From a virus, in the IMG/VR virus record IMGVR_UViG_3300030419_003193, positions 1 through 31,049 of that record: DNA of 31,049 nt; one strand, given 5' to 3'. How positions within the stretch are numbered: the first letter of the stretch is position 1; every line of letters begins with the position of its first letter. The position numbers were made by a program, and so were the translations under genes. Positions 3,340 through 23,169 of the stretch are shown here, piece by piece. The notes beneath the pieces were generated by a model. That model saw only the letters and a program-made list of their open reading frames with translations, was not told the DNA's origin and made no database searches.

Positions 3340-4497
3340 CTAGTTATTGTTTTTGCATTTCTTATTTTTGCAGCATGATTTTTTAGTTAACTGTTTTAAT
3401 TTTAGTTTTAATGTCTCTATCTCTCTTAGAACATCCGCGTCTAGTGTAGTGTCTGAGTCTTGATATAGGCCTCTGCATTCTCCTTCAATTAAATCAAAGT
3501 CCTTTTGGCTAAAAGAGCCATCCTCGACAAAATGCTCTTTAATGGGCGATAGGTCCATGCCTAATTCTAAAAACTCTAGTATATAGTTTCTAACCTTGTT
3601 TTCTGCCGTTAGTTCATATCTAACACCGTCTGGTCTACCAAAACGATGTAGCCATCTTAGGAACGGCAAATATATCGTTTGTCTATCATTTGCTCTGTAT
3701 TTTTCGTGTATATAACATTCTTCCCCGCCAAAGCCTCTTGCGTGCTCGTTAAACTTGAGCCACGAGGCCTTTCTGGTGAGAAAAACGCCTAACCCTTGGG
3801 CAAAAACAGGGAAAGGGCAACTGCTTGGATCTCGCCCAACCTTTGAATACCCCTGATCCGATAGGGGTTTTTCATGTCCGTAAAATCCAATATCTTTAGG
3901 AAACTCTCTATTACAATATACACATTTATCTAATTTCTCTTGCTTTTCCAAGGAAAAGAAGGAAACCTTGTCATTCTCATTATGTATCGCAAAATTATAG
4001 CTTTCACACACACACTGCCAAGCAGAACCCCACTGACCCCACATGTGTCCTCCCCAAGTATCGTTAAAGTGGGTGGAAAAATTCATCAGGTCGTCGTGAA
4101 TCAGGGGGCCTGTATACAAATCATCTGATTTTGAATTGTATTCCAAAAAGCTAAATAATTTATCTAGGGTTTCTACAACCGGACAGAGTAATACATGACA
4201 ATCCATTACTAGTACAAAATTAGTTCTTGCTTCTTCTATAATTTTATTTCTAGCCGGTGAAGTTCCAATATCTTCTGTTAGGTCAATTACCTCTAAATTT
4301 CTAACTTTATTGCTGTAGTCCTTAAGCATCTGGGCGTGCTTACTGCCGGGGTCGTTTTCAACCACTAAGAACTTTATTCTTTGCAGAAGGTCATGTCTTC
4401 TGTTAAAAATGAGTTCTTTTCTAATGTCCTGAATTGTAAAGTACACCCCGTGATAGTCGTTGTGGTGTGCCATTCCGATAGTTAATGTTTGTTCCAT
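3340..4497 (-). CDS. Glycosyltransferase, GT-A fold, polypeptide-GalNAc-transferase-like
   Basis: This 385-aa protein has GT-A family features. SPARNKIIEEA (80-90) precedes a strand ending in VLVMDCH (95-101). That DxH (D99, H101) matches the metal-binding DxH of GT27 polypeptide GalNAc-transferases rather than the usual DxD. FGGEECYIHEKYR (256-268) followed by P278 and WLHRFGR (282-288) resembles the GT27 pattern of a GGE box, then P, then H-x-x-R. A CVYC pair sits at 192-195 and the C-terminus is a Cys/Lys tail (CCKNKKCKNNN). The start has a strong AGGAGAGG site. It lies 48 bases after a protein with long Thr runs and just before the large fibre, so a virion protein is the likely acceptor (inference). 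Family assignment is by motif only; another GT2-like specificity is possible. Confidence 0.75.
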   Translation of the reverse strand: MEQTLTIGMAHHNDYHGVYFTIQDIRKELIFNRRHDLLQRIKFLVVENDPGSKHAQMLKDYSNKVRNLEVIDLTEDIGTSPARNKIIEEARTNFVLVMDCHVLLCPVVETLDKLFSFLEYNSKSDDLYTGPLIHDDLMNFSTHFNDTWGGHMWGQWGSAWQCVCESYNFAIHNENDKVSFFSLEKQEKLDKCVYCNREFPKDIGFYGHEKPLSDQGYSKVGRDPSSCPFPVFAQGLGVFLTRKASWLKFNEHARGFGGEECYIHEKYRANDRQTIYLPFLRWLHRFGRPDGVRYELTAENKVRNYILEFLELGMDLSPIKEHFVEDGSFSQKDFDLIEGECRGLYQDSDTTLDADVLREIETLKLKLKQLTKKSCCKNKKCKNNN

Positions 4498-4545
4498 CTT
4501 AACCTCTCCTTTTAAAAATAAAATCTTAGTTATGCTCCACTGCCG

Positions 4546-7146
4546 CTACGGTGGCGTCGTTGCGGGCTCTTCTTCATCGCCACCGGGACCACCACCGGGA
4601 TCGCCACCGGGATCACTGGTAGTAGTTGTGGTGGTCGTTGTGGTAGTTGTGGTGGTGTTACAGGGGTCTCCATCACAATTTAGTCCGCTGGACCACGTTC
4701 CTCCTAAAATACCACATTCTTCAGAGCTGTTGACAACACATGTGACAACGCCGTCTTCTACATAACAGCAGCGTCCGGTTGTTACACCCTCTCCCGGTGG
4801 CTCATCGTCGCCGCCCGGACCGCTAACGCATTCACCCTCTTCATTCCCTATGGTTGTTCCATCTGGGCAGCAGCAGCAGCACCCTTCAGGCTGGTGAAGA
4901 CAGTCCATGCTAACGACACTCCCATCTGGATAGCAACATGTAACCGCTCGGGCTTCTCGACAGTTACTATCACATGGGGGTGCAAAATCACCGCACTCGT
5001 CCGGACCAAGAGTGGTTGTGGTTGTGGTCGTGCAACAATTGCAGTCAAACCACGGATCGCATGGGGTAAACGGGTCGTTTGGTAACCACTCAAAATCTCC
5101 CCTTGTAGACTTAATAACAAGTCTATCGTCTATATCATAGGTTGGAGGAGAGGAACAAGATTGACCCGGAGCGTTGTCTTCAAATTCATGAGAAACCTCG
5201 ATGATACCGCATGTATCAGAGCCCCAAAAAACCTTCCACCTATCTTTGCTTGTACCTTCGTGATTACTATAGCAGAAAATCTTTATCCACCATGTGTCCC
5301 CACAGTCCGTTGTGCCTTCGCCTTTATAAACAGTGGGATTAAGCCCTGTACGGCAGGGGAAATCACCATCACCACTTTTAATAGAATCTTCTCTTTCTAT
5401 AAATGTTTCAAAATAGTGTACATCATTAGTATCACAAATGCCTCCATCGTCATTAGCTCCTAAATTTCCTAGAGGCCCTATGTAACACGGAGAACAATCT
5501 TGAGGGCAATCACGATACAAGTTTAGGGGAGTGCCACCTCTAGAAAGAGACACCTGAAATGTGTCCCCCGAAACGTTCACTGCATAATAACAAACGTTTT
5601 CAGCGAGTACTATAAAACAGCAGTCGAGAGAATCTTTACCATATTTGAAGACCTGCCCCTCCTCTAAACCGTGACCGGATATGGTAATGGTGTCGGCATC
5701 GGAATCAATGTCATGAAACGGGTTGAAGAAAAATCTTCTTATGTCTGACGTTCCGCTCAGTGGGCCGAACTCAATATCGCAAATAGAGCAGCCGCAGTCC
5801 TTTTTCCCGTGACAAAACTTAAAAGTTCCTGAAATTTCATCTGGGCAATTACAGTCTTCGGAAGGGCATGGGTCGCCCGAATAGATTTTTTCGGAACAGT
5901 TTGTCTCAGCACAGCTTGGGGAACCATCGCTTGTGTATTCTGTGAAAACCTTAACCCCGTCAGCACACCCGTCACCGCTCTCGTGAAAAGCTTCGTTGGT
6001 GCAATTTGCAGAATGTGCATTATCTTCGCATGAATAAGAATAATCGCCACCGCAACAATGCTTAGTGCAACAGGTTCCTAAACCGCACGGGTTTGCATAT
6101 TCACCACAGGGCTTTTCTAAAACCGTACCCCCTAAAGCTGTACACAATTCACTAGACAGATTGAGACAAGAATAATCACCAAACTCTTCAACACAACAAC
6201 CTTTATCTGGCTCCTCGGTGGTTGTTGTGGTAGTGCTTGTCGTCGTTGACGTAGTGGTAGTAGTGGTGGTCGTCGATGTGCATTCATTGCAGCTGACTAC
6301 CCCAACCCAGACATCCGTACAGTCAATATAATTAGTCTCCGGATCATACCCCGGATAATTGTACCTAAGTCGCTTATGGTTGACGGGGTCTAATACCCAG
6401 TAGTATTCGCCACCGGTATTGGGCCAGACGCAATTGCTGTTCGGGGATTGTCCGGGAGCAGTTCCCGTCTTTGTTGTTTCCAAGGTAGGGCAGCACCAAC
6501 TACCATATGAACAGTTGTGAAAAGCTATACCGTTTACATAATATATATGATTGCCGTCTAGAGACAAGTCGTATAGTACCGTGTCGAAGTCAGTTTCTGA
6601 GTCTTTTAGTTTAATTTCTTTTACCGGTTTTTTACCAGCTTCTGAAAATATGATATCTCCTACGTTAAGATTTCCCACAAAGTCTAATTCAGAATAAAGT
6701 TGTCTTGAAAGCTCAACTTCCAGCGATTTAAAGCCATCCTGAGTAATAATAGGATGATCGTAGCTAAAAAAGAAATCTGAGTTGTTTATGGAAGCCAGTC
6801 TTCTATTTCCGAGGATTGTTTTTTCTATGTGTACTACCGTGTTGACTTCGCCATTGATGGATTTTACCTTTTCACCAACGGCAACCTCAGATATTGACTT
6901 ATAAGAGCCATCACTCATTAAGACTTGCGATTCAGAGATGAAACAGGTCGGTGGAGGACCACTACAATCAATGGCAGAGCAAAGAGTGCTGGGAGAATGG
7001 ACACCACCGGGTCTTGACAAGCAGTCGTTTACTTCTACATCATCTTCGCAGGTTCTAGACCATTCAGTAAGCCCGTAGCAGCAAGCACCGGGAGGAGGTG
7101 GAGGTGGGGGAGTTACTAATCCGTCACACTGGCAGCACTGAGTCAT
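4546..7146 (-). CDS. Cys-rich, Thr-rich modular virion protein with embedded mini-intein (Hint) domain
   Basis: This protein has 866 aa and very many Cys, often in CC pairs. Three modules share the pattern G-x(0-1)-CC, C, C, GG, C, C (about 20-61, 315-354 and 791-829). Between the first module and CSYGSWCCP lies a complete-looking Hint domain, residues 68-211 (separate entry). Thr/Ser runs sit at 290-310, 706-712 and 831-843, like mucin linkers. Residues 480-545 hold a 'HGLEEGQVFKY ... YYAVNVSGDTFQVSLSRGGTP' domain of a type often seen in phage structural proteins. The C-terminus is Gly/Pro/Asp/Glu rich. AGGAGG five bases before ATG fixes the start. Role inferred: an exposed adhesin or fibre accessory. 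It has no signal peptide, so disulfides would form after lysis, or the Cys may bind metal. Confidence 0.8.
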   Translation of the reverse strand: MTQCCQCDGLVTPPPPPPPGACCYGLTEWSRTCEDDVEVNDCLSRPGGVHSPSTLCSAIDCSGPPPTCFISESQVLMSDGSYKSISEVAVGEKVKSINGEVNTVVHIEKTILGNRRLASINNSDFFFSYDHPIITQDGFKSLEVELSRQLYSELDFVGNLNVGDIIFSEAGKKPVKEIKLKDSETDFDTVLYDLSLDGNHIYYVNGIAFHNCSYGSWCCPTLETTKTGTAPGQSPNSNCVWPNTGGEYYWVLDPVNHKRLRYNYPGYDPETNYIDCTDVWVGVVSCNECTSTTTTTTTTSTTTSTTTTTTEEPDKGCCVEEFGDYSCLNLSSELCTALGGTVLEKPCGEYANPCGLGTCCTKHCCGGDYSYSCEDNAHSANCTNEAFHESGDGCADGVKVFTEYTSDGSPSCAETNCSEKIYSGDPCPSEDCNCPDEISGTFKFCHGKKDCGCSICDIEFGPLSGTSDIRRFFFNPFHDIDSDADTITISGHGLEEGQVFKYGKDSLDCCFIVLAENVCYYAVNVSGDTFQVSLSRGGTPLNLYRDCPQDCSPCYIGPLGNLGANDDGGICDTNDVHYFETFIEREDSIKSGDGDFPCRTGLNPTVYKGEGTTDCGDTWWIKIFCYSNHEGTSKDRWKVFWGSDTCGIIEVSHEFEDNAPGQSCSSPPTYDIDDRLVIKSTRGDFEWLPNDPFTPCDPWFDCNCCTTTTTTTLGPDECGDFAPPCDSNCREARAVTCCYPDGSVVSMDCLHQPEGCCCCCPDGTTIGNEEGECVSGPGGDDEPPGEGVTTGRCCYVEDGVVTCVVNSSEECGILGGTWSSGLNCDGDPCNTTTTTTTTTTTTTSDPGGDPGGGPGGDEEEPATTPP
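4618..4656 (-). repeat. Poly-Thr linker 3 (mucin-like)
   Basis: Residues 831-843 are thirteen Thr after the third GxCC module and before the Gly/Pro/Asp/Glu tail. The mixed ACN codons read as a run of gtggt/tgtgg on the plus strand. Confidence 0.85.
5011..5031 (-). repeat. Poly-Thr linker 2 (mucin-like)
   Basis: Residues 706-712 are seven Thr directly after a CNCC end, again with mixed ACN codons. The run separates the central domain from the C-terminal Cys modules. Confidence 0.75.
6217..6279 (-). repeat. Poly-Thr/Ser linker 1 (mucin-like)
   Basis: Residues 290-310 are almost all Thr with a few Ser, written with mixed ACN codons, so the run is kept at protein level and is not a simple DNA homopolymer. 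It joins two Cys-rich modules. Confidence 0.85.
6514..6945 (-). other. Mini-intein / Hint domain inside the Cys-rich protein
   Basis: The domain is 144 residues (68-211 of the host protein). All hallmark positions are present: Cys1 in CFISESQVLMSDGSYKSI (block A), SYDHPIITQDG (block B, with the block-B Thr replaced by Ser), and YDLSLDGNHIYYVNGIAFHN (block F/G) ending in His-Asn, followed at once by Cys as the +1 nucleophile. No LAGLIDADG or HNH endonuclease is inserted. Splicing would join GPPPT to CSYGSWCC. A bacterial-intein-like domain that cleaves or crosslinks rather than splices is the main alternative. Confidence 0.88.
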
Positions 7147-7155
7147 GAACGCCTC

Positions 7156-9900
7156 CTAACTAGTGCCGGAGCAGCTTACATAAATCGGTCTGTGTTCACC
7201 ATTAACCATCATGGTTATTACATAGGCGGCACCACCTACAGCACCCGGCCCGTGAATGTTTAGTGTTGTATCCCTAGATGTTACTAGTAAGAGTCTATCG
7301 TCAAGGAAGCCATTTTCATAACTTCTAGTACGCATCCAGCCGCTTACAGGAGATGTAAATGATGTTGGAGCATATATGTACTCAGTCATTATACCTTCGT
7401 GTGTACCGAACCAAGAGTCACATTTGGCGTCGGGTTCAGTTTGATGGTTAACATCCGGCCCGCCAGAGTTTCTCCTTATGAAAGACCCTGAAGAATTTAC
7501 CCTAGCCACACCGGACGTGTTATTTATCCACTTTTGAATATTAATATCCGTATGGCCTAGTGAGTAATTTGTGTCGGTGGTATGTCTTATGACCTCAAGC
7601 GGTGCACTTGGTGTCAGGGTAGCTTTACCTATTGATATACTCGGCGTTTTTGTATTACCGGCTATAGAGTTTTGAATATTAAGAGTATCAGACAATTCAC
7701 CGCTAGTATAAAGCAATCTCTGGTTATCGTCAAGACCGGCTACTAATTCAATATTTCTAGAACCACCTTCAGAATCAGAAATTTCTCCGCCTAAAGCGTG
7801 GGCACCAATACCAATGGAGTTGGGGTTGGTACTATTTTCTCCAGCACCCGGACCTATAAATATGGACTTGGTTGAAGAATCTGCATTTTTACCAGCAGAG
7901 CTACCTATAAATATGGCATTGTCGGTGTTAGACGCTGTATGCCCAGCCATATACCCAATGTAAGTGCACGCAGTGTCGCTAGAAAGGCTGCCGTTGGTTG
8001 TTGTAGAATCTAAACCAGCGTTGGTACCAATAAACACTCCGTGCTTCCAGCCTGTGGCGTTTGTGGCCACATCGCAACCGATGAAAACGGAATGAGAATT
8101 GAGAGCAGACTTTATTGTGTTGCCGGGGTTTGTGAATAGAGCGTTGCAATTATCAGAAAAACTTGCTGAACCTGCGGTTACGTAATTGCCTAACGCAGTC
8201 AAGCTCATCTTGCCTAATCCATCAGCAACGTCAACGGCAACGTAAGATTCATCAGCGACTATGGGGCTTGTTAGCTCAGAGGCAAGTTTTACATTATCAA
8301 AGTCTAAGCCTAGGTAATAACTGGTACCAATTAGCATTCTTTTGATGCCGGAGACCTCTAAACCGTAGTACTTTCTAAAGTTGGCAATTGAGTTAAGAGA
8401 TGTGCCGTCATTAAATCTAACGTCACCTAATACACGTAAATCACCACTTATGGATACTGTGGGTCTTTTAAAGGTTGGAGATTCCCAAGTTGGTGTTATG
8501 GGTATAAGACCGCTGGGGTCATAATCCATTAAAGTTTGGCTGTGACCAATAGAGTTTAAAAATCTCATGGACATCATTGATCTAGTCTGCAAGGTAGAGA
8601 CTTTGTCTTGACTACCAAAAGTCACCGTGTGTCTACTATTGTCAAACATATGACCTAAGTTATAATCGTAATCACCTTTTTCTACTGCGAACCTTGTATC
8701 TTCAGAGTCTGAAGCAAGAATTGCAACAGTTCTAGAGCTGCCTTTTAATTGGCCAGTTATCAAAGGGGTTTCTTGACCTACAGCAAATAAATAATCTGGA
8801 GGATAATTGTCCACATAAAGGTTGTTACCAATAATTATGGTATTGTTTACCATTTCTCTAGAATCCGATAGCGGATCTGAAAGGGTAAGGTTTTTATACC
8901 CAAGCACAATATTCCCATCGCTTGGCGAAGACTGCGTAAAGGAGTTTGATCCAACTATTGTATTTTGCTTGCCTTGTTTTAGACCGCTACCCGCATGATA
9001 TCCAATTATCGTATTATCTGATGACGCAGGTTTAAAGTCAATACCTACATCAATTCCATGCCCAAGGTAAGTATTTCTTAATGTTTTACTGGATTCACCT
9101 CTGGATCTGGGGGTATACCAACCGCCAAAAGTATTGCCATACTGGTTTCCGTAAAGATTCCCGTTTGTAGAATCAAGAGTACTAGCAACTAAGTTAAATT
9201 CGTTTCCTCCGTCGTCTGCAAAATATAAAGCTTGGGTTTGTGTGCCAACCTCGTATGGCTTTACATAGACTTTACCATAGTTTGTTGCCGCAAGAGGTGA
9301 ATCGGATTGCTCTCTGAGGGAAAGAGTTCCGCTTCTTTTTGGATATCCGCTTAAAGAAACTTGTAAGGCTGAGTTTGTGTCTATACCATTAAGAGACTGT
9401 AAAGATTGGCCATCTTGGTCTATTAAGCCTGCACCTCTAGAATTTATCGACCCGATTGCTGTAGTTCCGTTTTGGTGAACTAAAAAGCTTATTTCTTTAC
9501 CTACGTCGTGGGCTATAGAGTCTCCGGGTAGTCCATCAATTTCAATGGCGGCGGCATTTTCTCCTAATTTGGCTAATTCGTAAGAACGTTGAGAGTCTTT
9601 TTGATATGATATAACCATACCTGAAGAAGGCTGATTTCCATTTCCTAAAAGTTCTATTTTACTTCTTGATGTAGAAGAGTGTGTTGAAAATCTTGCCTCC
9701 AACTCAGAATCTGCCTGAACATTAAAAATAGTATCTGGTATAATCGGGGCGTCGTCTGCGTCTCGCTGTTTATTAGTTACACCAACAAGTCCAGACTGTG
9801 AAGGGTCTCCCACATTCCTTAAAATAGTTACGGCTTCATAAATCTCAGATTCAGAATTACCATTATCTACATGTATTGATAGTCTATCTTTTTTAGTCAT
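7156..9900 (-). CDS. Large fibre / virion protein with IG-rich repeats
   Basis: This is a 914-aa protein. Two blocks of short repeats resemble YadA-head-like trimeric beta-rolls. One block has NTIIGYHAGS, NTIVGSNSF and NIVLGYKNL (about 300-350). The other has VFIGCDVA, VFIGTNAG, TYIGYMAG, IFIGSSAG, IFIGPGAG and IGIGAHA (about 620-720). Between them, 'SISGDLRVLGDVRFNDGTSLNS' is a common fibre shaft element. The C-terminal domain ends VMVNGEHRPIYVSCSGTS-like and may be the receptor-facing head. It begins just after the 528-aa paralogue and stops 10 bases before the Cys-rich protein, consistent with one transcript. GAGG lies upstream of the ATG. Inferred role: long tail fibre or whisker. Confidence 0.8.
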   Translation of the reverse strand: MTKKDRLSIHVDNGNSESEIYEAVTILRNVGDPSQSGLVGVTNKQRDADDAPIIPDTIFNVQADSELEARFSTHSSTSRSKIELLGNGNQPSSGMVISYQKDSQRSYELAKLGENAAAIEIDGLPGDSIAHDVGKEISFLVHQNGTTAIGSINSRGAGLIDQDGQSLQSLNGIDTNSALQVSLSGYPKRSGTLSLREQSDSPLAATNYGKVYVKPYEVGTQTQALYFADDGGNEFNLVASTLDSTNGNLYGNQYGNTFGGWYTPRSRGESSKTLRNTYLGHGIDVGIDFKPASSDNTIIGYHAGSGLKQGKQNTIVGSNSFTQSSPSDGNIVLGYKNLTLSDPLSDSREMVNNTIIIGNNLYVDNYPPDYLFAVGQETPLITGQLKGSSRTVAILASDSEDTRFAVEKGDYDYNLGHMFDNSRHTVTFGSQDKVSTLQTRSMMSMRFLNSIGHSQTLMDYDPSGLIPITPTWESPTFKRPTVSISGDLRVLGDVRFNDGTSLNSIANFRKYYGLEVSGIKRMLIGTSYYLGLDFDNVKLASELTSPIVADESYVAVDVADGLGKMSLTALGNYVTAGSASFSDNCNALFTNPGNTIKSALNSHSVFIGCDVATNATGWKHGVFIGTNAGLDSTTTNGSLSSDTACTYIGYMAGHTASNTDNAIFIGSSAGKNADSSTKSIFIGPGAGENSTNPNSIGIGAHALGGEISDSEGGSRNIELVAGLDDNQRLLYTSGELSDTLNIQNSIAGNTKTPSISIGKATLTPSAPLEVIRHTTDTNYSLGHTDINIQKWINNTSGVARVNSSGSFIRRNSGGPDVNHQTEPDAKCDSWFGTHEGIMTEYIYAPTSFTSPVSGWMRTRSYENGFLDDRLLLVTSRDTTLNIHGPGAVGGAAYVITMMVNGEHRPIYVSCSGTS

Positions 9901-9911
9901 TATTTTCCTCT

Positions 9912-11498
9912 TTATGCATCAAGCTCATCGTGATAAACAATTCTAAACCCTCGCTTACCAGCAGTTGTCTTTATCCTGCTAGCAAACTCGTGAGTAATTT
10001 TAACGCCCGAATCAACAGTTCCGAGCATTACAGAATAGTCGTATCCGGAGGGGTTAGCATCAGCACCTAGGTGTGTGCCTGAATTAGCTATAAAGTTTAC
10101 ATCTTTAAATGTTGGATATGCACCGACGTGATCTTCTCTACCTATATAGGCTTTATCGCCAGAAGGATGTTCACTACGCGTAAATATACCGTAGCAGCCG
10201 CTCTGTTTAGCTAGGGATAGGCTGTGGCTTCCTAAGACCCTATTGCCTTGGAAGTGGCAACCGCTATCAATTTCTATACTTATATTTGATTGCCATCTAG
10301 ATCTAGCAAAATGATTATCTATTTCTAAGCATTTTATGTTTGGATCTGAATTTCTGAATATAAATTTGTAGTCTCTTCTGTAGTCATAGCCGCTAGAGTG
10401 AGTTATGAATCCAGCACCGTCTAGTGATTCATCAGTCAAATAGCCGCACAGTGAGTCATTATGGAAACCAAGTGCTGAATCGTCACAGAGGCCGCTAGTA
10501 GCTAAATGTAGGGTTTTGCAATCGTAAATGCACTCATTTATTGTGTGATATTGTAAATCATTAATCATGGCGTTTCCGCTGACTACAATATCATTAAAAT
10601 ATCCATCCCAAAGCAGTTTGTTTCCATCCACCGTGCCGTCTGAGTAGCCTAGAGAGTATATACCGTTCTCGCTTGGAACTATACTACCGGCAACGGTCAT
10701 TAAGCCTTGGTTTCCAGATGGTGCAGAGGTTGCTACGCCAACTTTACCCCCAGAAAAATAAACCACCTCATTAACCGATTTAAATGGGTAGTTAGAATTA
10801 CCCGCATTAAAAAGATAGCCGTGAGACGGGGTAATATCTCCAGATACCTGAAGGGTTCCGTGGTTATGGAGAGACTCAATACCTATTGCAAGTCTATTAT
10901 TTTGTAGGTCTCCAAACATTAGGGGGGTTACACCGGACTGATTGTTATCAATGCAGTCGGTATCAGAATCAATAGGGTCAATACCTAGATAGAAGGTGTA
11001 ACTAGCGTCTGTTGAAACATGGCTACCTGCACCATGACCTATGGCTATGTTAAATGAGCCAGTTCTTCCATTTTGAAAAGCTAGCGAGCCTAACGCGAGG
11101 TTTCCAGAGCCGGTGGTGTTTCCGGCAAGAGAATTAAACCCTAAAGAGGAGTTATATGTACCGTGTAGGTTACATCCCAGTGAATGGGAACCAATAGCCG
11201 TGTTTTGTGCACCTTGATAGTTTGCACCAAGAGCATAATAACCAAAAGCTGAGTTGTCTACACTGGTTCTACCTGCGTATTTCAGTTTTCCCAAAGCTAA
11301 ATCACCAGCTAGGGTGCTTCTTGTCTCTGGGGTAGCAAAATTAGAGCTTAGTATTGCGTGACCATCTGTAAATAGATGGATTGAATCAACCAAGTCTCTG
11401 AGTGAAATTCTAAGATCAAGGGGAGATATTAATTGCGTAGAGTTATCCTCTAATAGAGAATTAATCTTCGCTATATACTCAGGTTTTGTTAATATCAT
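9912..11498 (-). CDS. Fibre protein with IG-rich repeats, paralogue of the next gene
   Basis: This is a 528-aa protein. Residues about 80-165 hold repeats of the same class as the 914-aa fibre (SAFGYYALG, TAIGSHSLG, SSLGFNSLAG, LALGSLAFQ, IAIGHGAG), followed by 'LAIGIESLHNHGTLQVSGDI'. This pattern is frequent in trimeric phage fibres. The C-terminal part (about 360-528) is rich in aromatic residues and Gly, with no family I can name. The N-terminus (KINSLLEDNSTQLISPLDLRISLRDLVDSI) resembles attachment segments of fibre proteins. The Shine-Dalgarno is weak (AGGC). It ends 12 bases before the next fibre. Inferred: structural, host contact. Confidence 0.78.
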   Translation of the reverse strand: MILTKPEYIAKINSLLEDNSTQLISPLDLRISLRDLVDSIHLFTDGHAILSSNFATPETRSTLAGDLALGKLKYAGRTSVDNSAFGYYALGANYQGAQNTAIGSHSLGCNLHGTYNSSLGFNSLAGNTTGSGNLALGSLAFQNGRTGSFNIAIGHGAGSHVSTDASYTFYLGIDPIDSDTDCIDNNQSGVTPLMFGDLQNNRLAIGIESLHNHGTLQVSGDITPSHGYLFNAGNSNYPFKSVNEVVYFSGGKVGVATSAPSGNQGLMTVAGSIVPSENGIYSLGYSDGTVDGNKLLWDGYFNDIVVSGNAMINDLQYHTINECIYDCKTLHLATSGLCDDSALGFHNDSLCGYLTDESLDGAGFITHSSGYDYRRDYKFIFRNSDPNIKCLEIDNHFARSRWQSNISIEIDSGCHFQGNRVLGSHSLSLAKQSGCYGIFTRSEHPSGDKAYIGREDHVGAYPTFKDVNFIANSGTHLGADANPSGYDYSVMLGTVDSGVKITHEFASRIKTTAGKRGFRIVYHDELDA

Positions 11499-12138: not shown

Positions 12139-13146
12139 TTAGAAGGAGCCTAAAATAACTCTTCTGTTGTCCAATACACCAAAACCAAGTTCAGCCCAGC
12201 CGTAATAGCCAGCACGCTGTTGTCTGTGAAGAGCAGGGTCTTCAAAGACTTGCATAGCTTGCTTAACAGGCATAATAAAGCTGTCGTTAGCACCTTGATC
12301 GACACCAACAACCAACTCAAGGTCAGAAGTCTGAACAGAACCACCAAGACCGTCCGTGAAGAAGGTTTGATATTCCTGACTTTCTCCGAGTTCGTCGAGA
12401 TCATGAAGGTTTACACCAAAGATTCGGGTGATTGGGGCACCACCTTCGCTTGCAGTGTAGATTTCACGGCGAGTTACCTCGTCAACTTGGTCCAGACCCC
12501 AGTTGCGAACGTCTTCCAGAGCTTCTGGAGAAACGTAAAGGTCTGTAAGGCGACCGCGATTAGCGGAGCCAGTGTTACCGCCAGCATTTCTTCGCATGGT
12601 GGTTTGCATGAGAGAAACAAGTCTCTTGCTGAACATACCGGCGGTTGCGTCACCGTCGTATACCAAGATGTTTCGATCAACACCGGCAGCCAAAATGGTG
12701 TGCCATCCGTCATCGTTCATCTTCTTGGTAAAACCAGCTTCAAGAGCCTGCATCGCACGAGCTACAATATCCCAACGTGCTTCACGAGCATAACGAAGCA
12801 AGAAGTCAATCGAGCTAGTAATGCTGTAAGTTGGAATCGTTACGTAGTCGCTTTCAACGGCTCGTTCTGGAACACGACCGTGTCCGGGATTGGTGTAAGC
12901 TACATGCTCACCCTCAAGGCCCGGAGAAATTAGATCGAGAGGATACTCGGTAGAGGCACCCGGCTCGACGTTAATAGTTTCAAAAATATCACCAAGGATA
13001 TTTCCGACAAGAACACCTTTACGCAAAGGAAGTTCTAACGCTTTAGCGAATTCTCGCTGTGCAGCGTGTGCGACGTTTTGGTCGCTATCACCAGACTTCT
13101 TCAGAAGTCCGATAAATTCGTCACTAGGTCTTTCTGTATATGACAT
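12139..13146 (-). CDS. Major capsid protein (HK97-like fold inferred)
   Basis: This 335-aa protein has the properties of the shell subunit. It lies right after the protease/scaffold and decoration genes, has a strong AAGGAGA site, and is followed by a strong terminator. Internal features fit phage major capsid proteins: the stretch around VTIPTYSITSSIDFLLRYAREARWDIVARAMQALEAGFTKKM (an E-loop/spine-like helix region), an alpha-helical segment, then 'LYVSPEALEDVRNW' and a C-terminal 'RAGYYGWAELGFGVLDNRRVILGSF', which is the usual ending of this class. The fold call comes from context and these patterns, not from an alignment. The 237-aa frame on the opposite strand is a shadow. Confidence 0.88.
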   Translation of the reverse strand: MSYTERPSDEFIGLLKKSGDSDQNVAHAAQREFAKALELPLRKGVLVGNILGDIFETINVEPGASTEYPLDLISPGLEGEHVAYTNPGHGRVPERAVESDYVTIPTYSITSSIDFLLRYAREARWDIVARAMQALEAGFTKKMNDDGWHTILAAGVDRNILVYDGDATAGMFSKRLVSLMQTTMRRNAGGNTGSANRGRLTDLYVSPEALEDVRNWGLDQVDEVTRREIYTASEGGAPITRIFGVNLHDLDELGESQEYQTFFTDGLGGSVQTSDLELVVGVDQGANDSFIMPVKQAMQVFEDPALHRQQRAGYYGWAELGFGVLDNRRVILGSF

Positions 13147-13170
13147 TATGTTGTCTCCTTTAGTTAGGTG

Positions 13171-13668
13171 TTATGAAAGGTCAGAGCCAAAGTTAGGCAG
13201 GTTGACATACAACTTAGCATAACCGTCAGCGTCTTTGCGAGACATCCAGCGGCCAATAGCCAAGTTACCAGATCCGCCGCCGGGTGCACTGGTCCCAATG
13301 TCACCATTTGATGCTGCATAGGCTACATCGCCAGCGGTAGGCGTACCAGTGACGTTACTAGTAACAACCCACCCACGGGTCATAAGAGTGACTTTTCCAC
13401 CTTTTTGAACTTCGTCCTTGAATTGATTCAAGTGAGTTCTGGTCAAGTCTTTGTTGACAACATCGTTTAAAAGAATGCCAACAGGTACGCTATCTTTATC
13501 TACTGTTCCATACTTTACAAGGTTTTCACCTTGATCAAGTGCGGCACCAGAAGCACCGGCAATAGCTGCTGCATCGAGAATAACAACACCACCGCGAGTT
13601 GCAGTACCAGCATTATAAAAATGGCTGATATCTGTTGATTCTTCGTATCTATCTGCTTTAAGAGCCAT
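13171..13668 (-). CDS. Capsid decoration / head accessory protein
   Basis: This 165-aa protein sits between the protease/scaffold and the capsid gene, the usual place for a decoration protein. The sequence is Gly/Ala/Val rich with beta-strand character (TRGGVVILDAA, GKVTLMTRGWVVTSNVTG, GDVAYAASNGDIGT, NLAIGRWMSRKD). This pattern is like DUF2190-type or head-stabilising proteins that start MALKADRYEE-like. It has a strong AGGAGA, and 24 bases separate its stop from the capsid start. Inferred: trimeric cap on the capsid surface. Confidence 0.7.
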   Translation of the reverse strand: MALKADRYEESTDISHFYNAGTATRGGVVILDAAAIAGASGAALDQGENLVKYGTVDKDSVPVGILLNDVVNKDLTRTHLNQFKDEVQKGGKVTLMTRGWVVTSNVTGTPTAGDVAYAASNGDIGTSAPGGGSGNLAIGRWMSRKDADGYAKLYVNLPNFGSDLS

Positions 13669-13687
13669 AGTTTAATCTCCTATAAAA

Positions 13688-14338
13688 TTATTTGTTAGAA
13701 AGGACGTGGTTTGAAAGCCAATCGGCAACGCTTGCACGAGTTGCTTCAACTTCATCATACTCATCAGCTTCAACAAGTGTAGCTTCTGTAGATTCCACCT
13801 CTTCAAAGGTCTCGGCAGTTACTTCTTCAGCTTCTGCTTCTTCTTCTTCAGTTGCGACTTCTTCAGCTTTGACTTCCTCTTCTTTTTTGTCTTCTTCTTT
13901 CTTTGCTTTCTTTTTCATGAGAGCAACGACAGACTCAAAAGCTTCGTCTTCCAAAGCATCAAAACTTGCAAGAGATTCTTCCACGTCTTCTTCGCTGATA
14001 CCAGCTTCTATAAGTGCGGCTTTTCTCTTTTCCATTTTTTCTTTCATTTGCATCTCAGCCACCTCTTTCTGAGCTTCTTCAAGCTTAGTTTGGGATGACG
14101 CGAGGCTATCTTCTAGTTCAGCAACGCGAGCTTGAGTAGACTTAATTACTTCATTAAGTTCATCAATCGTTGCCTTACTTTCTTCTGCCTGAGCCTCAAA
14201 TGCTTCAATCGTAGATGCAAACTCTTTGTCTTTTGCTTCTTCGATTTTGGCTTTAATGGCTTCGTTTTCAGTCTTAGCTTCTGCGAGCTGCGTCTGAACT
14301 TCAGCCAACTGCTTTTCCAACAGTGATTGATCTGACAT
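13688..14338 (-). CDS. Scaffold protein from an internal in-frame start
   Basis: ATG at 14338 is in frame with the protease gene (271 codons in). AGGAGAC lies just before it (14351-14345), spaced six bases from ATG, far better than chance. Translation gives a 216-aa coiled-coil protein (MSDQSLLEKQLAEVQTQ...) with the scaffold tail. This is the same arrangement as lambda C/Nu3, where protease and scaffold share a C-terminus. The fusion would bring the protease into the procapsid and the excess short form would build the core (known for lambda, inferred here). Confidence 0.8.
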   Translation of the reverse strand: MSDQSLLEKQLAEVQTQLAEAKTENEAIKAKIEEAKDKEFASTIEAFEAQAEESKATIDELNEVIKSTQARVAELEDSLASSQTKLEEAQKEVAEMQMKEKMEKRKAALIEAGISEEDVEESLASFDALEDEAFESVVALMKKKAKKEEDKKEEEVKAEEVATEEEEAEAEEVTAETFEEVESTEATLVEADEYDEVEATRASVADWLSNHVLSNK

Positions 14339-17300: not shown

Positions 17301-19286
17301 TTAATAAATATCCTTCATAGAGTCTGTAAACCAGTTTGGACCGGAATACATATCACCCTTTTTTTCTGTTTTTTCCATTGTTGCGAAGCCACCGTAGAAG
17401 TTGTATATTGTAGCTTCTGGTAATCTTGCTAGAGTTCTAGCAGCCATGTTTGCCATAATAAGTGCGGAGTAACGGTCCTTTCTTTGTTTACCCTTTTTCC
17501 CAGTCCCAATGACAGTTTCTGGTGTATCCCATTTGTCTCGACCGCTGGCTGTCTGTGTTATCTGTATCATTGTTAACTCATCTTTAAGGTCTTCAATTTC
17601 TAAAACACATTGCTCTAATGTGTCAAAGACTCTACCTTTTAATCCGTCTTCCGCGTTTGACAATCCAAGGGTTATGGCATCAAACCTAGGAAACAGTATA
17701 GCCTTATCTTCGAAGTCTTTTCTTAATCCGTGGTTGGCTTCTGAAAGCCAGTCATACTTAGCGAACTGACACATTTCAAGTATGTGTAGACCCCTGTTAT
17801 CATCCGTGTCCTTAGCCTTGTCCTCGTCTATAACGGGCCATATGGCCACTTCTCCGTCTTCCAGCTTATCTGAGTCGTGTAAAGACTCCATAACTGCTAT
17901 ACCGCCCCCTTGTGCGTCCATGGCGATATGTATACAGGGATAGATCTTCATTAAGTCTCTTATTTTTCTAGCACAGTAGGCGTAGAAATCGCTTTCTGAA
18001 GAAAAGCCACTTTTAACCTTCTGTTTGTGTTCCGACCTGTTGGTTGTCCAGCAGTGAACTATTCTTCTGTGGTCGTGATTTACTTCTAATACAACAATGC
18101 TAAAATTATCAACCTCGGAGGCTGGGTCAACACCAAAAATATACTTCTTATTGGGATCTCCTCTCAGGCTGGCCTCAAAGACTATATCTTCACCCTTGCT
18201 ATCTTTGATAACTTTTGAATCATTTGAGCCATCGTTCGCTACGCACCCCTCTATGAGAGTACGCTTGAAAAACCCCTGAGAATCGCGGGTAAAACACGCA
18301 CCAAACTCCATCTGATAAATACCGGCATGTACCGTTGCTTTTGACCTAGCGACCTGTGAGGCGTCCATAAAGCCCTCTGGCAGAAGTTCGTAAGGAACTC
18401 TAATAATTGAGTAATCTCGCCAGTTGAAGTCTTTTGGTGCGTCTTCGCCAAAGATCTCCCTAAGCTTGTTTGGTCTTCCTTGACTTCTTATTATAGACTT
18501 CCACTTTTTCCAGTACTCTGCAAAGTGGTTAAAGTCATAATAGGCGGTACCGGAAAGGATGATTTGGTTGTTCTTTCTTTCTAGGATAGCGTCTGTCTCT
18601 TGTTCTATTTCTATTCCTAGTTCTATAGCTTTCTTGCGTGCTGCTATTTTTTTTACATTTTCTATGGGGTCTGAGCTAACGGCGGCAAAACCAGCAACAA
18701 CAGTTTCGAAGATGTCTCTAGGTATTGATGCAAACTCGTCGCTTATAATATCGTTTGCACGCTGACCACGAATTTTTTGCCCATCACCAAGTGGCAAACA
18801 AGTTACTCGGGAGCTATTGATACGCATGACACACCTGTCTACATCTCTTCTTGGCCCACTGTTAGAGTCGCACATGCTTCTCAAAATAGGTGCGTTATTC
18901 CAAATAGTCTCCATATACTCAAATAGAACTTTAGACTGCCTAAAAGCGGCACCGACTACTACAACTTTTCTTTCCGGTAAAAGTAAAGCTCTAATCATGG
19001 AATAGAGTGAAAGTATAAAAGACTTACCGAAACCACGGCTAGCTATTAACATTGGAAATCTTCTATTCCACATCTCGCATAAGAAGAGGGCTTGAGACGG
19101 CAATATATTTATATTAAAAACCTGCTTGCATAAAAAAGAGAAGTACTCAGGTCTAGTCATTAACCAAAGCATTTTGTAGTGGTAATCATCATCGTTGAAG
19201 TTAACGAAGGAAAATGGGTTAAAAAGACTGCTATTGTCTATATCTAGATTCAACCAAGCTTCGTCTATGTTTTTTAAGTTATTCAT
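17301..19286 (-). CDS. terL: Terminase large subunit
   Basis: The protein is 661 aa from ATG 19286. The ATPase part has Walker A ASRGFGKS (82-89), 'KVVVVGAAFRQSKVLFEYME' after it, and Walker B IISDE (180-184) followed by an aromatic-free arginine loop. The nuclease part has GVDPAS with D387 and IAMDAQGGG with D457, the metal-binding acids of the RNase H-like domain. It cuts concatemers and pumps DNA through the portal. The start chosen is ATG at 19286, which overlaps the previous stop (ATGAATAA), suggesting coupled translation. A longer reading would need a TTG at 19325 inside the previous gene and has no ribosome site. Confidence 0.93.
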   Translation of the reverse strand: MNNLKNIDEAWLNLDIDNSSLFNPFSFVNFNDDDYHYKMLWLMTRPEYFSFLCKQVFNINILPSQALFLCEMWNRRFPMLIASRGFGKSFILSLYSMIRALLLPERKVVVVGAAFRQSKVLFEYMETIWNNAPILRSMCDSNSGPRRDVDRCVMRINSSRVTCLPLGDGQKIRGQRANDIISDEFASIPRDIFETVVAGFAAVSSDPIENVKKIAARKKAIELGIEIEQETDAILERKNNQIILSGTAYYDFNHFAEYWKKWKSIIRSQGRPNKLREIFGEDAPKDFNWRDYSIIRVPYELLPEGFMDASQVARSKATVHAGIYQMEFGACFTRDSQGFFKRTLIEGCVANDGSNDSKVIKDSKGEDIVFEASLRGDPNKKYIFGVDPASEVDNFSIVVLEVNHDHRRIVHCWTTNRSEHKQKVKSGFSSESDFYAYCARKIRDLMKIYPCIHIAMDAQGGGIAVMESLHDSDKLEDGEVAIWPVIDEDKAKDTDDNRGLHILEMCQFAKYDWLSEANHGLRKDFEDKAILFPRFDAITLGLSNAEDGLKGRVFDTLEQCVLEIEDLKDELTMIQITQTASGRDKWDTPETVIGTGKKGKQRKDRYSALIMANMAARTLARLPEATIYNFYGGFATMEKTEKKGDMYSGPNWFTDSMKDIY

Positions 19287-19734
19287 ATTTTGTTTTAAAT
19301 AGGTGATCCGTCCAAAGAAAGACAACGCCGAAATTTTTTGCGGGTCTTTTGTGATGGTCTAAATGGTGTTTCTGTGCTCTTTTGTAATAATTAGTCTTTG
19401 TTATCCAGTGGTCTTCAAGGCCGTGTATTGCTCTGTGTACATGTGTCCAAGTATAAGAATGAAAATAAAAAATTAACAGTAAGCATAACATCGAGACTAA
19501 CCCATATCCAAAATAAGCAAAAGTTAAGAGCGGAGAGCCTACTATCAGATGCATATAAAATGGCAGATCTACGTTTAAATCGTTTCTGTTGTTTTTATGG
19601 TGCTCAATTGCGTGATGTCTCCATATCCATTCGGGAAGGAGTGTTCTTTTATGCATTGTGTATTTGTGTATAAAATACTCGCTAAAAGCCATTACAAGAT
19701 ACCAAACAGTTAACCAAATCAAAACCTCATACAT
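19279..19734 (-). CDS. Fatty-acid-hydroxylase / sterol-desaturase-like membrane protein
   Basis: The protein is 151 aa with His clusters typical of di-iron membrane hydroxylases: HKYTMH (23-28), HHAIEHH (40-46), HVHRAIH (98-104) and HHLDHH (123-128). Membrane segments run over about 3-22 and 60-92. The family (PF04116-like) uses two irons held by these His to hydroxylate or desaturate lipids or carotenoids. All expected His boxes are present in a short protein, so it may be active. It lies between ClpP-like and terL, has an AGGGG site, and its stop overlaps the terL start by eight bases. Substrate unknown; a lipid-changing auxiliary metabolic role is inference. Confidence 0.8.
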   Translation of the reverse strand: MYEVLIWLTVWYLVMAFSEYFIHKYTMHKRTLLPEWIWRHHAIEHHKNNRNDLNVDLPFYMHLIVGSPLLTFAYFGYGLVSMLCLLLIFYFHSYTWTHVHRAIHGLEDHWITKTNYYKRAQKHHLDHHKRPAKNFGVVFLWTDHLFKTKYE

Positions 19735-21427: not shown

Positions 21428-22420
21428 CTAAACCACTCTGTCATGGTCTACCATCATTTTAACTAGGTCTTCAAATGAGTGTCTTGGTGTCCATCCAAGT
21501 TTTTCAACAGCCTTGTCATTAAGACCTCTTAAATAATCCACTTCTGCTGGCCTATAGAATTCTGGATCAATAACCACATAATCACTCCAGTCTTCAATAT
21601 CCACATGTTTAAACGCTACGTCTAAGAACTCACGAATCGTATGAGTTTCTCCGGTGCAGATGACATAATCTTCTGGGCTATCCTGCTGTAGCATCATCCA
21701 CATCGCTTCCACGTAATCTCCCGCGTACCCCCAATCTCGGAATGCTTCCAAGTTGCCTAGACGTAGCTTTGGAAACTCTGGATCTCGTTCGCATTTCACG
21801 AAGTCTCCAATCCATTTTGTAATCTTTCTTGTGACAAATGTTTCACCTCTTCGCGGCCCTTCGTGATTGAATAAAATGCCAGCACTCGCGTGGAGGTCAT
21901 ATGCTTCACGAAAAAGTCTCGTCATATGGTGTGCGGCACATTTTGCTATAGCATAAGGACTCTGAGGTAAAAACTTTGTATCTTCGTTTTGAAATTTATT
22001 TTGGTCTCTATCTGTATCGTAATTCTTTCCATACATTTCGCTGGAACTTGCTTGGTAGAATCTGGCTTCTGACAATTTTAGATCTACCACCGCCTGTAGG
22101 ATATTTAAACAGCCCTTGCCTGTTATGTCCCAAGTCAGTCCGGGTTGCTTAAAAGACACTGCTACATGACTTTGTGCGGCTAAATTATAGATTTCATCTA
22201 CATCATCGTGTTCTTTTAGAATATTTATGACACTATGAGCATCGGTAATGTCGCCTTGAGCGAGATTAAAACTAGGATTTCCAAGAATATGTTTGATTCT
22301 TTCTGTGTTGTCTGTGCTGGCTCTTCTGCAAACACCCACTACTTCGTAGCCCTTGCCTAGTAATAGATCCGATAGGTGACTTCCGTCCTGACCTGTAACG
22401 CCAAAAATAATAGCTTTCAT
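21428..22420 (-). CDS. gmd: GDP-mannose 4,6-dehydratase
   Basis: The protein is 330 aa, close to family length (about 340-370). NADP-binding GVTGQDGSHL (7-16), SSSEMYG (125-131) with the Ser-Glu pair, and SPYAIAK (154-160) with Y156 and K160 are the Rossmann and catalytic motifs of short-chain-dehydrogenase-type Gmd. 'FNHEGPRRGETFVTRKI' is the nucleotide-sugar box. It turns GDP-mannose into GDP-4-keto-6-deoxymannose, the first step to GDP-fucose, GDP-rhamnose or GDP-perosamine. Its start overlaps the GT6 stop (ATGA). No fucose synthase (fcl) is seen, so the host must supply the next step or the keto sugar is used directly. Confidence 0.93.
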   Translation of the reverse strand: MKAIIFGVTGQDGSHLSDLLLGKGYEVVGVCRRASTDNTERIKHILGNPSFNLAQGDITDAHSVINILKEHDDVDEIYNLAAQSHVAVSFKQPGLTWDITGKGCLNILQAVVDLKLSEARFYQASSSEMYGKNYDTDRDQNKFQNEDTKFLPQSPYAIAKCAAHHMTRLFREAYDLHASAGILFNHEGPRRGETFVTRKITKWIGDFVKCERDPEFPKLRLGNLEAFRDWGYAGDYVEAMWMMLQQDSPEDYVICTGETHTIREFLDVAFKHVDIEDWSDYVVIDPEFYRPAEVDYLRGLNDKAVEKLGWTPRHSFEDLVKMMVDHDRVV

Positions 22421-23169
22421 ATTTGTTCCTCTATGTATTTCCCATTTAAAATGTTAAAAATTGAATCTTTGTTTTTTCTTATTAGTTCTTCTATCTCTAT
22501 GAACTTCACGTTCGGGTCTCTAAATATCTTGAGTCCGCCCTTGTGACTTATCTCGAATTGAAACTCTTTAGTCGAAATAATTTTCACTTCAAACTTGTTA
22601 AAGTAATAATTAATGTAACTTTCATCATTTACGGGTGCTTCGTATCCTAATGAGTGATCTAGATCCTGTCTTGCTTTTAGTTCTATACACATCTTTTTAA
22701 CAAGATCATATCGCCCCCCAAAAAATGCACCTAAGTAATAAGAGTACTTCTTACCTTCTTCATATGGAAGAAAACAGTTCGACTCTTCATTTTTCTCTAA
22801 AGGCATGTAATGAAATCCGGCATTTTGATACATAAAATGCTGACCCCCTACTAGGTCTCCAATAAACCAGTCACCAAACTTACGATTTACATTCGTATCT
22901 GCGTCAAAGTAGTATATATAATCGTGCTCTGGGATGGATAACATTGAGGTGAACTTGGAATTAGTTGCATCTGCCCAGTTATCGTGAGCCGCTTTGACCC
23001 AAACATAATCAGTATATTCTGGAAGAAAAGGTTTAGGATCTCTATCTGTGAAGAGGTAAAACCTATATAAGTTGTCTCCTGTATAAAAGTGAAAAAACCT
23101 GTTAATGAATCTAATAGCTAAAGTAAAATAAGCATTAGTCCCTATTAAACATATTGCAATACTTTTCAT
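22417..23169 (-). CDS. GT6-family glycosyltransferase (ABO-like)
   Basis: The protein is 250 aa. The match to GT6 (blood-group A/B and alpha-1,3-galactosyltransferase family) is by motif: IYYFDADTN (85-93), with DAD at 89-91 as the metal-binding DxD; YYLGAFFGG (144-152), against the family YYLGGFFGG; and NDESYINYYF (181-190), against HDESHLNKYF. 'PYEEGKKY' matches the family's IPKDEGDFY-like stretch. GT6 enzymes add Gal or GalNAc in alpha-1,3 linkage to a sugar acceptor. Most bacterial GT6 proteins have NxN in place of DxD, so DxD here is closer to the vertebrate and some phage members (from memory). The start overlaps the previous stop by one base (TAATG). Confidence 0.85.
   Translation of the reverse strand: MKSIAICLIGTNAYFTLAIRFINRFFHFYTGDNLYRFYLFTDRDPKPFLPEYTDYVWVKAAHDNWADATNSKFTSMLSIPEHDYIYYFDADTNVNRKFGDWFIGDLVGGQHFMYQNAGFHYMPLEKNEESNCFLPYEEGKKYSYYLGAFFGGRYDLVKKMCIELKARQDLDHSLGYEAPVNDESYINYYFNKFEVKIISTKEFQFEISHKGGLKIFRDPNVKFIEIEELIRKNKDSIFNILNGKYIEEQI

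Follow-up and report, generated by a model that had tools for sequence, protein, structure and literature searches.

A 385-aa glycosyltransferase resembling the GT27 polypeptide GalNAc-transferases and an adjacent 866-aa protein with long threonine runs probably form a prokaryotic mucin-type O-glycosylation pair, in which the enzyme acts mainly on the threonine runs of its neighbor. We consider this the best overall explanation of the data; no glycosylation has been shown. The two genes lie on the minus strand of a 31,049-nt stretch of DNA (the window), part of a 33,153-base virus record of a marine-type phage (IMG/VR IMGVR_UViG_3300030419_003193). They are 48 bases apart, exactly as a preliminary description of the window had placed them, and a purine-rich, GGAG-containing ribosome-binding site precedes the start of each.

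That description had already interpreted the genes as an O-glycosylation pair, and our analysis supports this interpretation, with glycosylation itself untested. It had missed a complete-looking mini-intein at aa 68-211 of the threonine-run protein and a second glycosylation locus at 21428-23169. The pair recurs in many uncultured phages and, across several bacterial phyla, with unrelated poly-threonine proteins, which suggests that prokaryotes have their own, so far undescribed version of mucin-type sugar coating.

Fold and motifs of the GT27-like enzyme

The enzyme and its motifs are located as follows.

3340..4497, minus strand: GT27-like DxH glycosyltransferase, 385 aa (open reading frame; Pfam Glycos_transf_2; AF2; Foldseek)
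4195..4203, minus strand: DxH metal-site motif D99-C-H101, invariant in alignments A1 and A3
3718..3732, minus strand: F-G-G-E-E motif, aa 256-260, equivalent of the GT27 WGGE
3634..3648, minus strand: H284-R-F-G-R, candidate third metal ligand, 25 residues past E259

D99-C-H101, G257-G258-E259 and H284 are invariant in the 32 viral members of alignment A1. The DxH and GGE...H-x-x-R layout previously proposed for the enzyme therefore holds for DxH, GGE and His but not for the arginine: the putative metal-binding His is followed by R-F-G-R, which puts Arg at +1 and +4, whereas the GT27 H-x-x-R has it at +3. The motifs of generic, inverting GT2 enzymes (DxD, and an Asp base in xED) are unmet, with DxH in the first case and G-G-E-E at the xED position in the second.

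The AlphaFold model computed from A1 has a mean pLDDT of 89.7 and a pTM of 0.84, and its C-terminus is helical. When this model is compared with the PDB by Foldseek, GT27 polypeptide GalNAc-transferases account for all 50 matches listed, with GalNAc-T2 best (1.1e-12), followed by Toxoplasma T3, T1, T4, T7, T10, T12 and Drosophila PGANT9; TM-scores to the GT27 structures are only ~0.5. A profile of phage and bacterial members of the family (A3) matches GALNT10 (1.3e-5), TgGalNAc-T3 (3.4e-4) and GALNT4 (6.1e-4). Only GT27 chains are matched across all motifs, over a span that starts in the N-terminal half and takes in the GGE/His region, whereas the match to ordinary GT2 enzymes (6h1j, 5tze) is limited to the N-terminal half. 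DxH, GGE and the following His are collinear in the GALNT10 alignment, and the stretch from GGE to His is gapless; the Glu-to-His distance is 25 in both proteins, as it is in 165 of 166 motif-matching homologues. The suggested likeness to GalNAc-T structures is thus borne out, and no other glycosyltransferase family fits better; a better fit elsewhere would have refuted the original proposal.

A phmmer search of the PDB with the single enzyme gives no match, GT27 being reached only through family profiles and fold comparison, and Pfam assigns the generic Glycos_transf_2 (PF00535) alone, at 3.4e-6 and above cut-off. We call the enzyme GT27-like, not a GT27 member, because the lectin domain is missing (Pfam finds no ricin-type domain in it or in the homologues scanned) and the Arg positions after the His differ. 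Since the lectin domain is lacking and the TM-scores are so modest, specificity could differ from that of GT27. Some homologues are fused to methyltransferase-like domains.

Replacement of DxD by DxH is reported for GT27 and GT60, both of which are polypeptide Ser/Thr transferases (PMC7185993). With the GT27 GalNAc-transferases of animals and Toxoplasma, the phage enzyme has in common the GT-A fold, DxH, GGE, the His 25 residues past the Glu, and an apparent preference for Thr/Ser-dense acceptors. It differs from them in having neither the lectin domain nor a Golgi anchor, in its 11-15% identity over fold matches, in its hosts, which are prokaryotes and phages, and in that its donor is unknown. 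The CAZy GT60 polypeptide GlcNAc-transferases likewise combine DxH with Ser/Thr polypeptide acceptors (PMC7185993), and phage proteins annotated 'Glycosyltransferase, GlcNAc' occur among the weaker fold matches of the enzyme. However, the GT60 Pfam family GlcNAc (PF11397) is absent from the Pfam matches of scanned members up to E 1, and no GT60 structure is among the PDB matches listed. We infer that the 385-aa protein is probably a metal-dependent (DxH...H), retaining polypeptide O-glycosyltransferase.

The threonine-run protein and its Hint domain

The proposed acceptor is a modular protein with the following features.

4546..7146, minus strand: Thr-run, Cys-rich modular protein, 866 aa, proposed acceptor (open reading frame; composition)
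6949..7146, minus strand: N-terminal Cys module CCxC...GACCY...CEDNVxxNDC...C, common to partner proteins (alignment A4)
6514..6945, minus strand: Hint domain/mini-intein, C68 to N211, with Cys212 at +1 (Pfam, NCBIfam, AF2, Foldseek)
6217..6279, minus strand: Thr/Ser run 1, aa 290-310, 21 residues
5011..5031, minus strand: Thr run 2, aa 706-712, 7 residues
4615..4656, minus strand: Thr run 3, aa 831-844, 14 residues

Three Thr/Ser runs of up to 21 residues in mixed codons had been claimed, and this description is accurate: all four Thr codons are present. Shuffling the residues of the protein 2000 times gives a longest T/S run of 3.8 on average and 8 at most; in five further large structural ORFs from the window, the longest runs span 2-4 residues. 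The order of the codons is random, with identical neighboring codons at a frequency of 0.25 observed against 0.28 expected, so the runs are held by selection on threonine at the protein level and not by a DNA repeat. It is scarcely credible that they are a product of simple-repeat slippage or low-complexity chance beside an unrelated GT2 gene. Their low complexity and their differing copy number among relatives would fit such an origin, but codon order rules it out, and both the shuffles and the recurrent linkage in independent clusters described below contradict it.

Cysteine makes up 8.4% of the protein (73/866), which meets a mucin-like layout of long Thr/Ser-dense tracts between Cys-rich modules; one relative (L002) matches Pfam Mucin weakly, below cut-off. 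Conservation of the N-terminal module in A4 is too low for scanning sequence collections, and PHROGs gives no meaningful match for either the 866-aa protein or the 385-aa enzyme.

The N-terminal module is followed by a Hint domain. Over aa 68-211, Pfam Hom_end_hint is matched at 2.8e-6, below its curated cut-off, and the NCBIfam intein_Cterm motif is matched above cut-off. The AlphaFold model of the domain has a pLDDT of 90.7, with the Tetrahymena BIL2 domain (TM 0.78) and the cyanophage gp41-1 intein (TM 0.71/0.81) as its best Foldseek matches. The motif set of class 1 mini-inteins (Cys1, block B T/S-x-x-H, a His-Asn end and Cys/Ser/Thr at +1) is met, and the splicing residues Cys1, the S-x-D-H block B, the terminal His-Asn and the +1 Cys are invariant in six loci.

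The domain is most likely a splicing mini-intein, with splicing inferred and BIL-type cleavage a live rival. BIL-type domains occur in modular surface proteins, and the best fold match is itself a BIL domain. A cleaving or cross-linking BIL or hedgehog-type domain that cuts off the N-terminal module remains possible on these grounds but is doubtful, given that the canonical splicing residues are all in place and unvarying, that the fast-splicing gp41-1 is also among the top matches and that the intein C-terminal motif exceeds its cut-off. Cyanophage-type mini-inteins (gp41-1) and bacterial intein-like domains resemble the phage Hint domain in fold, Cys1, His-Asn and +1 Cys; the phage domain, in contrast to known mini-inteins, sits in a rapidly varying Cys/Thr-rich structural-type protein and not in a conserved replication enzyme.

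Presence of the Hint domain is sporadic (it is absent from members L003, L005, L006 and L008), and an 'empty' splice site in relatives without it is not demonstrable, that stretch being too variable. Wherever a Hint-bearing Thr-rich locus reaches far enough downstream, the enzyme is the next gene. Distant Hint relatives (L185-L192) lie inside tail-type proteins of ~1,700-2,200 aa in other uncultured phages.

Linkage of enzyme and threonine-rich partners in phages and bacteria

A search of IMG/VR with the enzyme alone gives 47 relatives, and the alignment search retained the best 80 of 401 relatives. Viral loci were selected by the enzyme alone and de-replicated at 65% identity into 42 clusters, and a TTTT-bearing ORF is directly adjacent to the enzyme in 33 of these. 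Such ORFs make up 38/78 of adjacent ORFs against 9/310 of the others (Fisher p 1.8e-22). Under a stricter criterion (20/40 residues Ser/Thr, with at least 12 Thr), 27/42 clusters remain positive (p 3.8e-17). Several apparent negatives have a Thr-rich ORF one gene farther off, or shorter runs; because genuine partners whose runs are short, or that a small ORF separates from the enzyme, fail the strict mucin-like test (L009, L011, L149, L152, L154 and L035), the linkage counts are conservative. A failure of the two genes ever to co-occur, which would have refuted the pair, is thus not what is observed, and Thr-rich ORFs are enriched near the bacterial enzyme too. Enzyme homologues are absent from 50,697 sequenced phage records, so there is no isolate to consult, and from plasmids.

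Among the 67 bacterial clusters, 35 show a Thr-rich ORF no more than 3 kb from the enzyme, and about half have none near it. The density of such ORFs is 23-fold higher close to the enzyme (41 in 353 kb) than farther away (3 in 599 kb). The 35/67 comes from a small-ORF scan; a scan limited to ORFs of at least 90 aa finds only 11/67, because bacterial partners are often small. The hosts include many Alphaproteobacteria, Gammaproteobacteria and Desulfobacterota, as well as Acidobacteria, Planctomycetes, Chloroflexi, Bacteroidota, Actinomycetes and others, and some hosts of the pair are cultured, among them Oricola indica JL-62 and Desulfofustis glycolicus DSM 9705. In a quick tree, the members divide into a viral and a bacterial main group, and those from Planctomycetes, together with one from Chloroflexi, are placed next to the viral sequences.

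The bacterial partners have their own architectures. In 17 loci the partner is a small protein with RR, a hydrophobic helix, 'W-x-KPVV...PAHA' and mostly a poly-Thr tail; others carry barrel-like or PqqD-like heads with a Thr-rich tail. A twin-arginine signal exceeds the NCBIfam cut-off in one of the three bacterial partners scanned. Partners in phages and in most bacteria have no evident common sequence besides the Thr-rich tract, so the tract is the feature that these otherwise unrelated proteins share. No other single argument, in our view, speaks as strongly for the tract as the likely acceptor, and it rests on sequence comparison.

The small exported-looking family is seen in L056, L061, L071, L078, L081, L084, L094, L097, L099, L113, L114, L118, L119, L121, L125 and L128, among others, and the adjacent enzyme homologues are frequently fusions with HprK-like or PqqD domains. 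Bacterial homologues with an N-terminal HprK_rel_A or PqqD domain recall HprK-related kinase/PqqD cassettes, whereas the phage enzyme has neither domain; no publication was found on a Thr-rich neighbor in such cassettes. On Planctomycetes and Chloroflexi contigs (L072, L080, L088), repeated C-x-G-x-C-x-W-x-W modules with long Thr/Ser linkers adjoin a long fused form of the enzyme; these loci are possibly proviral.

Several observations speak against the pair. There is no evidence of expression, of a glycan or of the protein in virions, and the unpaired bacterial clusters also count against it, as does one viral subclade (L133, L136, L138, L140, L026-028) in which the enzyme lies beside a protein that shares the N-terminal Cys module, contains beta-propeller-like repeats and has hardly any Thr runs. 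Either the acceptor has changed in this subclade, or the whole Cys-module protein is the partner and Thr runs are the commonest, though not the sole, form of acceptor. In L026, L133, L136 and L140 the partner lacks Thr runs, and its Cys module precedes RCC1-like propeller repeats and a pair of dockerin-like repeats; in L144, Thr is scarce in a partner that carries both Cys modules and a Hint domain.

The Thr-poor partners could mean that the enzyme acts on another target, such as lipid, phage DNA or a polysaccharide on the host surface, and that the Thr runs are unmodified flexible spacers of a fiber-associated protein. Phage glycosyltransferases are often serotype-converting or DNA-modifying (PMC12619734), and the Pfam assignment is merely generic. 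We nevertheless think it unlikely, as the fold and motifs are GT27-like and not those of known DNA or lipid transferases, and as linkage to Thr-rich ORFs of unrelated architecture is strong in phages and in many bacterial phyla.

The modified residues, whether Ser/Thr or of another kind, could instead lie in the Cys-rich modules or flanking fibers. The Cys module persists where Thr runs are lost, and a downstream fiber-like gene is Thr/Ser-rich too. We give this possibility little credence, since most bacterial partners, of the RR-PAHA-polyThr kind, are linked to the enzyme yet have no Cys modules or fiber neighbor. The threonine runs remain our preferred acceptor.

Sugar genes, proposed pathway and known systems

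The structural module of the window, on the minus strand, encodes terminase, portal, cement and major head proteins, a Gp80-like fiber protein and a tail-spike-like protein; a ClpP-type head protease is also present. The neighbors of the pair and the sugar genes, which lie upstream of it on the same strand, are as follows.

7156..9900, minus strand: 914-aa protein with fiber-like repeats, upstream of the Thr-rich gene
9912-11498: next gene, matching tail-spike and virion PHROGs
21428..22420, minus strand: GDP-mannose 4,6-dehydratase, nucleotide-sugar supply (Pfam GDP_Man_Dehyd, 1e-115)
22417..23169, minus strand: glycosyltransferase of family GT6 (ABO transferases), in a variable slot (Pfam PF03414, 3.7e-12; PDB ABO transferases, 2.8e-12)

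Of 30 related virus records searched, 19 contain the dehydratase, with 68-84% identity over the best-matching segments, and its gene order beside ERCC4-type nuclease, protease and terminase genes is kept. The slot next to it varies. GT6 occupies it in the window, G010, G012 and G016, with L203 and L216 as the loci shown; a GT29 sialyltransferase-like gene is found there in L200 (7249-7785), L202 (10356-10877) and L207 (5988-6509), and L209 (4284-4928) has a GT32-type DXD sugar transferase. The nearest PDB chain to the L202 copy is ST6GalNAc-II, a mucin O-glycan enzyme (1.5e-7). The dehydratase, the exchangeable transferases and the methyltransferase-like fusions together suggest that many of these phages appear to make and cap their own glycan; its tie to the Thr-rich protein is an inference.

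A pathway can be proposed from these elements. The 866-aa protein would be made first, and the mini-intein (C68-N211, with its +1 Cys) would splice out, so that T67 is linked to C212. Using a nucleotide sugar and a divalent metal, the enzyme might then glycosylate the Thr runs in the host cytoplasm, a step for which there is no direct evidence. The first sugar, placed on many adjacent Thr, would most likely be HexNAc by analogy; its identity is unknown. Accessory transferases may cap it, again without direct evidence, and the glycan could be diversified by the phage's GDP-mannose 4,6-dehydratase and the exchangeable second transferase (GT6, or GT29 or GT32-like in relatives). Stiff glycosylated linkers between the Cys-rich modules would finally shield a surface-located or tail- or fiber-associated virion protein and vary its surface; direct evidence is lacking here as well, and presence in the virion is inferred.

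A wider proposal, which we put forward only tentatively and hold to be doubtful as a whole, is that phages and many bacteria share mucin-type O-glycosylation by a GT27-related initiator and dedicated poly-Thr acceptors. In these phages, the glycans would be capped by GT6/ABO-like and GT29 (closest to ST6GalNAc-II) families, supplied by the phages' own nucleotide-sugar enzymes and carried on a virion protein that matures by splicing; the exchangeable slot would make the surface variable, and the GalNAc-Ts of eukaryotes would turn out to have relatives among prokaryotes. The GT6/ABO-like and GT29 families are best known from animal mucin and blood-group chemistry.

The preliminary description had thought it unusual for a phage to O-glycosylate its own fiber-associated protein. 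Virion glycosylation by phage-encoded enzymes is already known: glycosyltransferases of mycobacteriophages (Che8, Corndog, Myrna) glycosylate the phages' own structural proteins (Freeman 2023, cited in PMC12619734 and PMC12363180). The targets given there are the C-termini of capsid and tail tube proteins, in contrast to the tracts considered here, and these accounts mention no mucin-like acceptor with Thr runs and no GT27-like enzyme. The combination appears to be new, as no description of the enzyme with a poly-Thr partner was found in the open-licence literature searched. Mucin-type O-glycosylation is itself familiar; what would be new is its occurrence where it was not expected and the separate clade to which the enzyme belongs.

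A 2014 review describes bacteria as having no known equivalent of the GALNTs, which begin mucin glycans in animals by adding the first sugar (PMC4202792). That view would change with a GT27-like clade that spans phages and several bacterial phyla and in each has its own poly-Thr neighbor. If the pair is what we propose, it could provide a soluble tool for making dense O-glycans, and it would suggest that some phages wear self-built, variable sugar coats.

The related genomes show further features around these genes. Most dehydratase frames in relatives are ~340-406 aa, against 330 in the window, with an apparent short insertion near residue 211. In L207, a cytidylyltransferase of the CMP-sugar type (PF02348, 9157-9879) lies near the GT29-like gene and is possibly its donor supply. 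A small membrane fatty-acid hydroxylase (PF04116), conserved in relatives, sits among packaging and nuclease genes in the window (19279-19734), L200 (4052-4504) and L213 (5082-5528). Inside the phage contig L201, a DUF1501 protein (12857-14140) has a Tat-like N-terminus.
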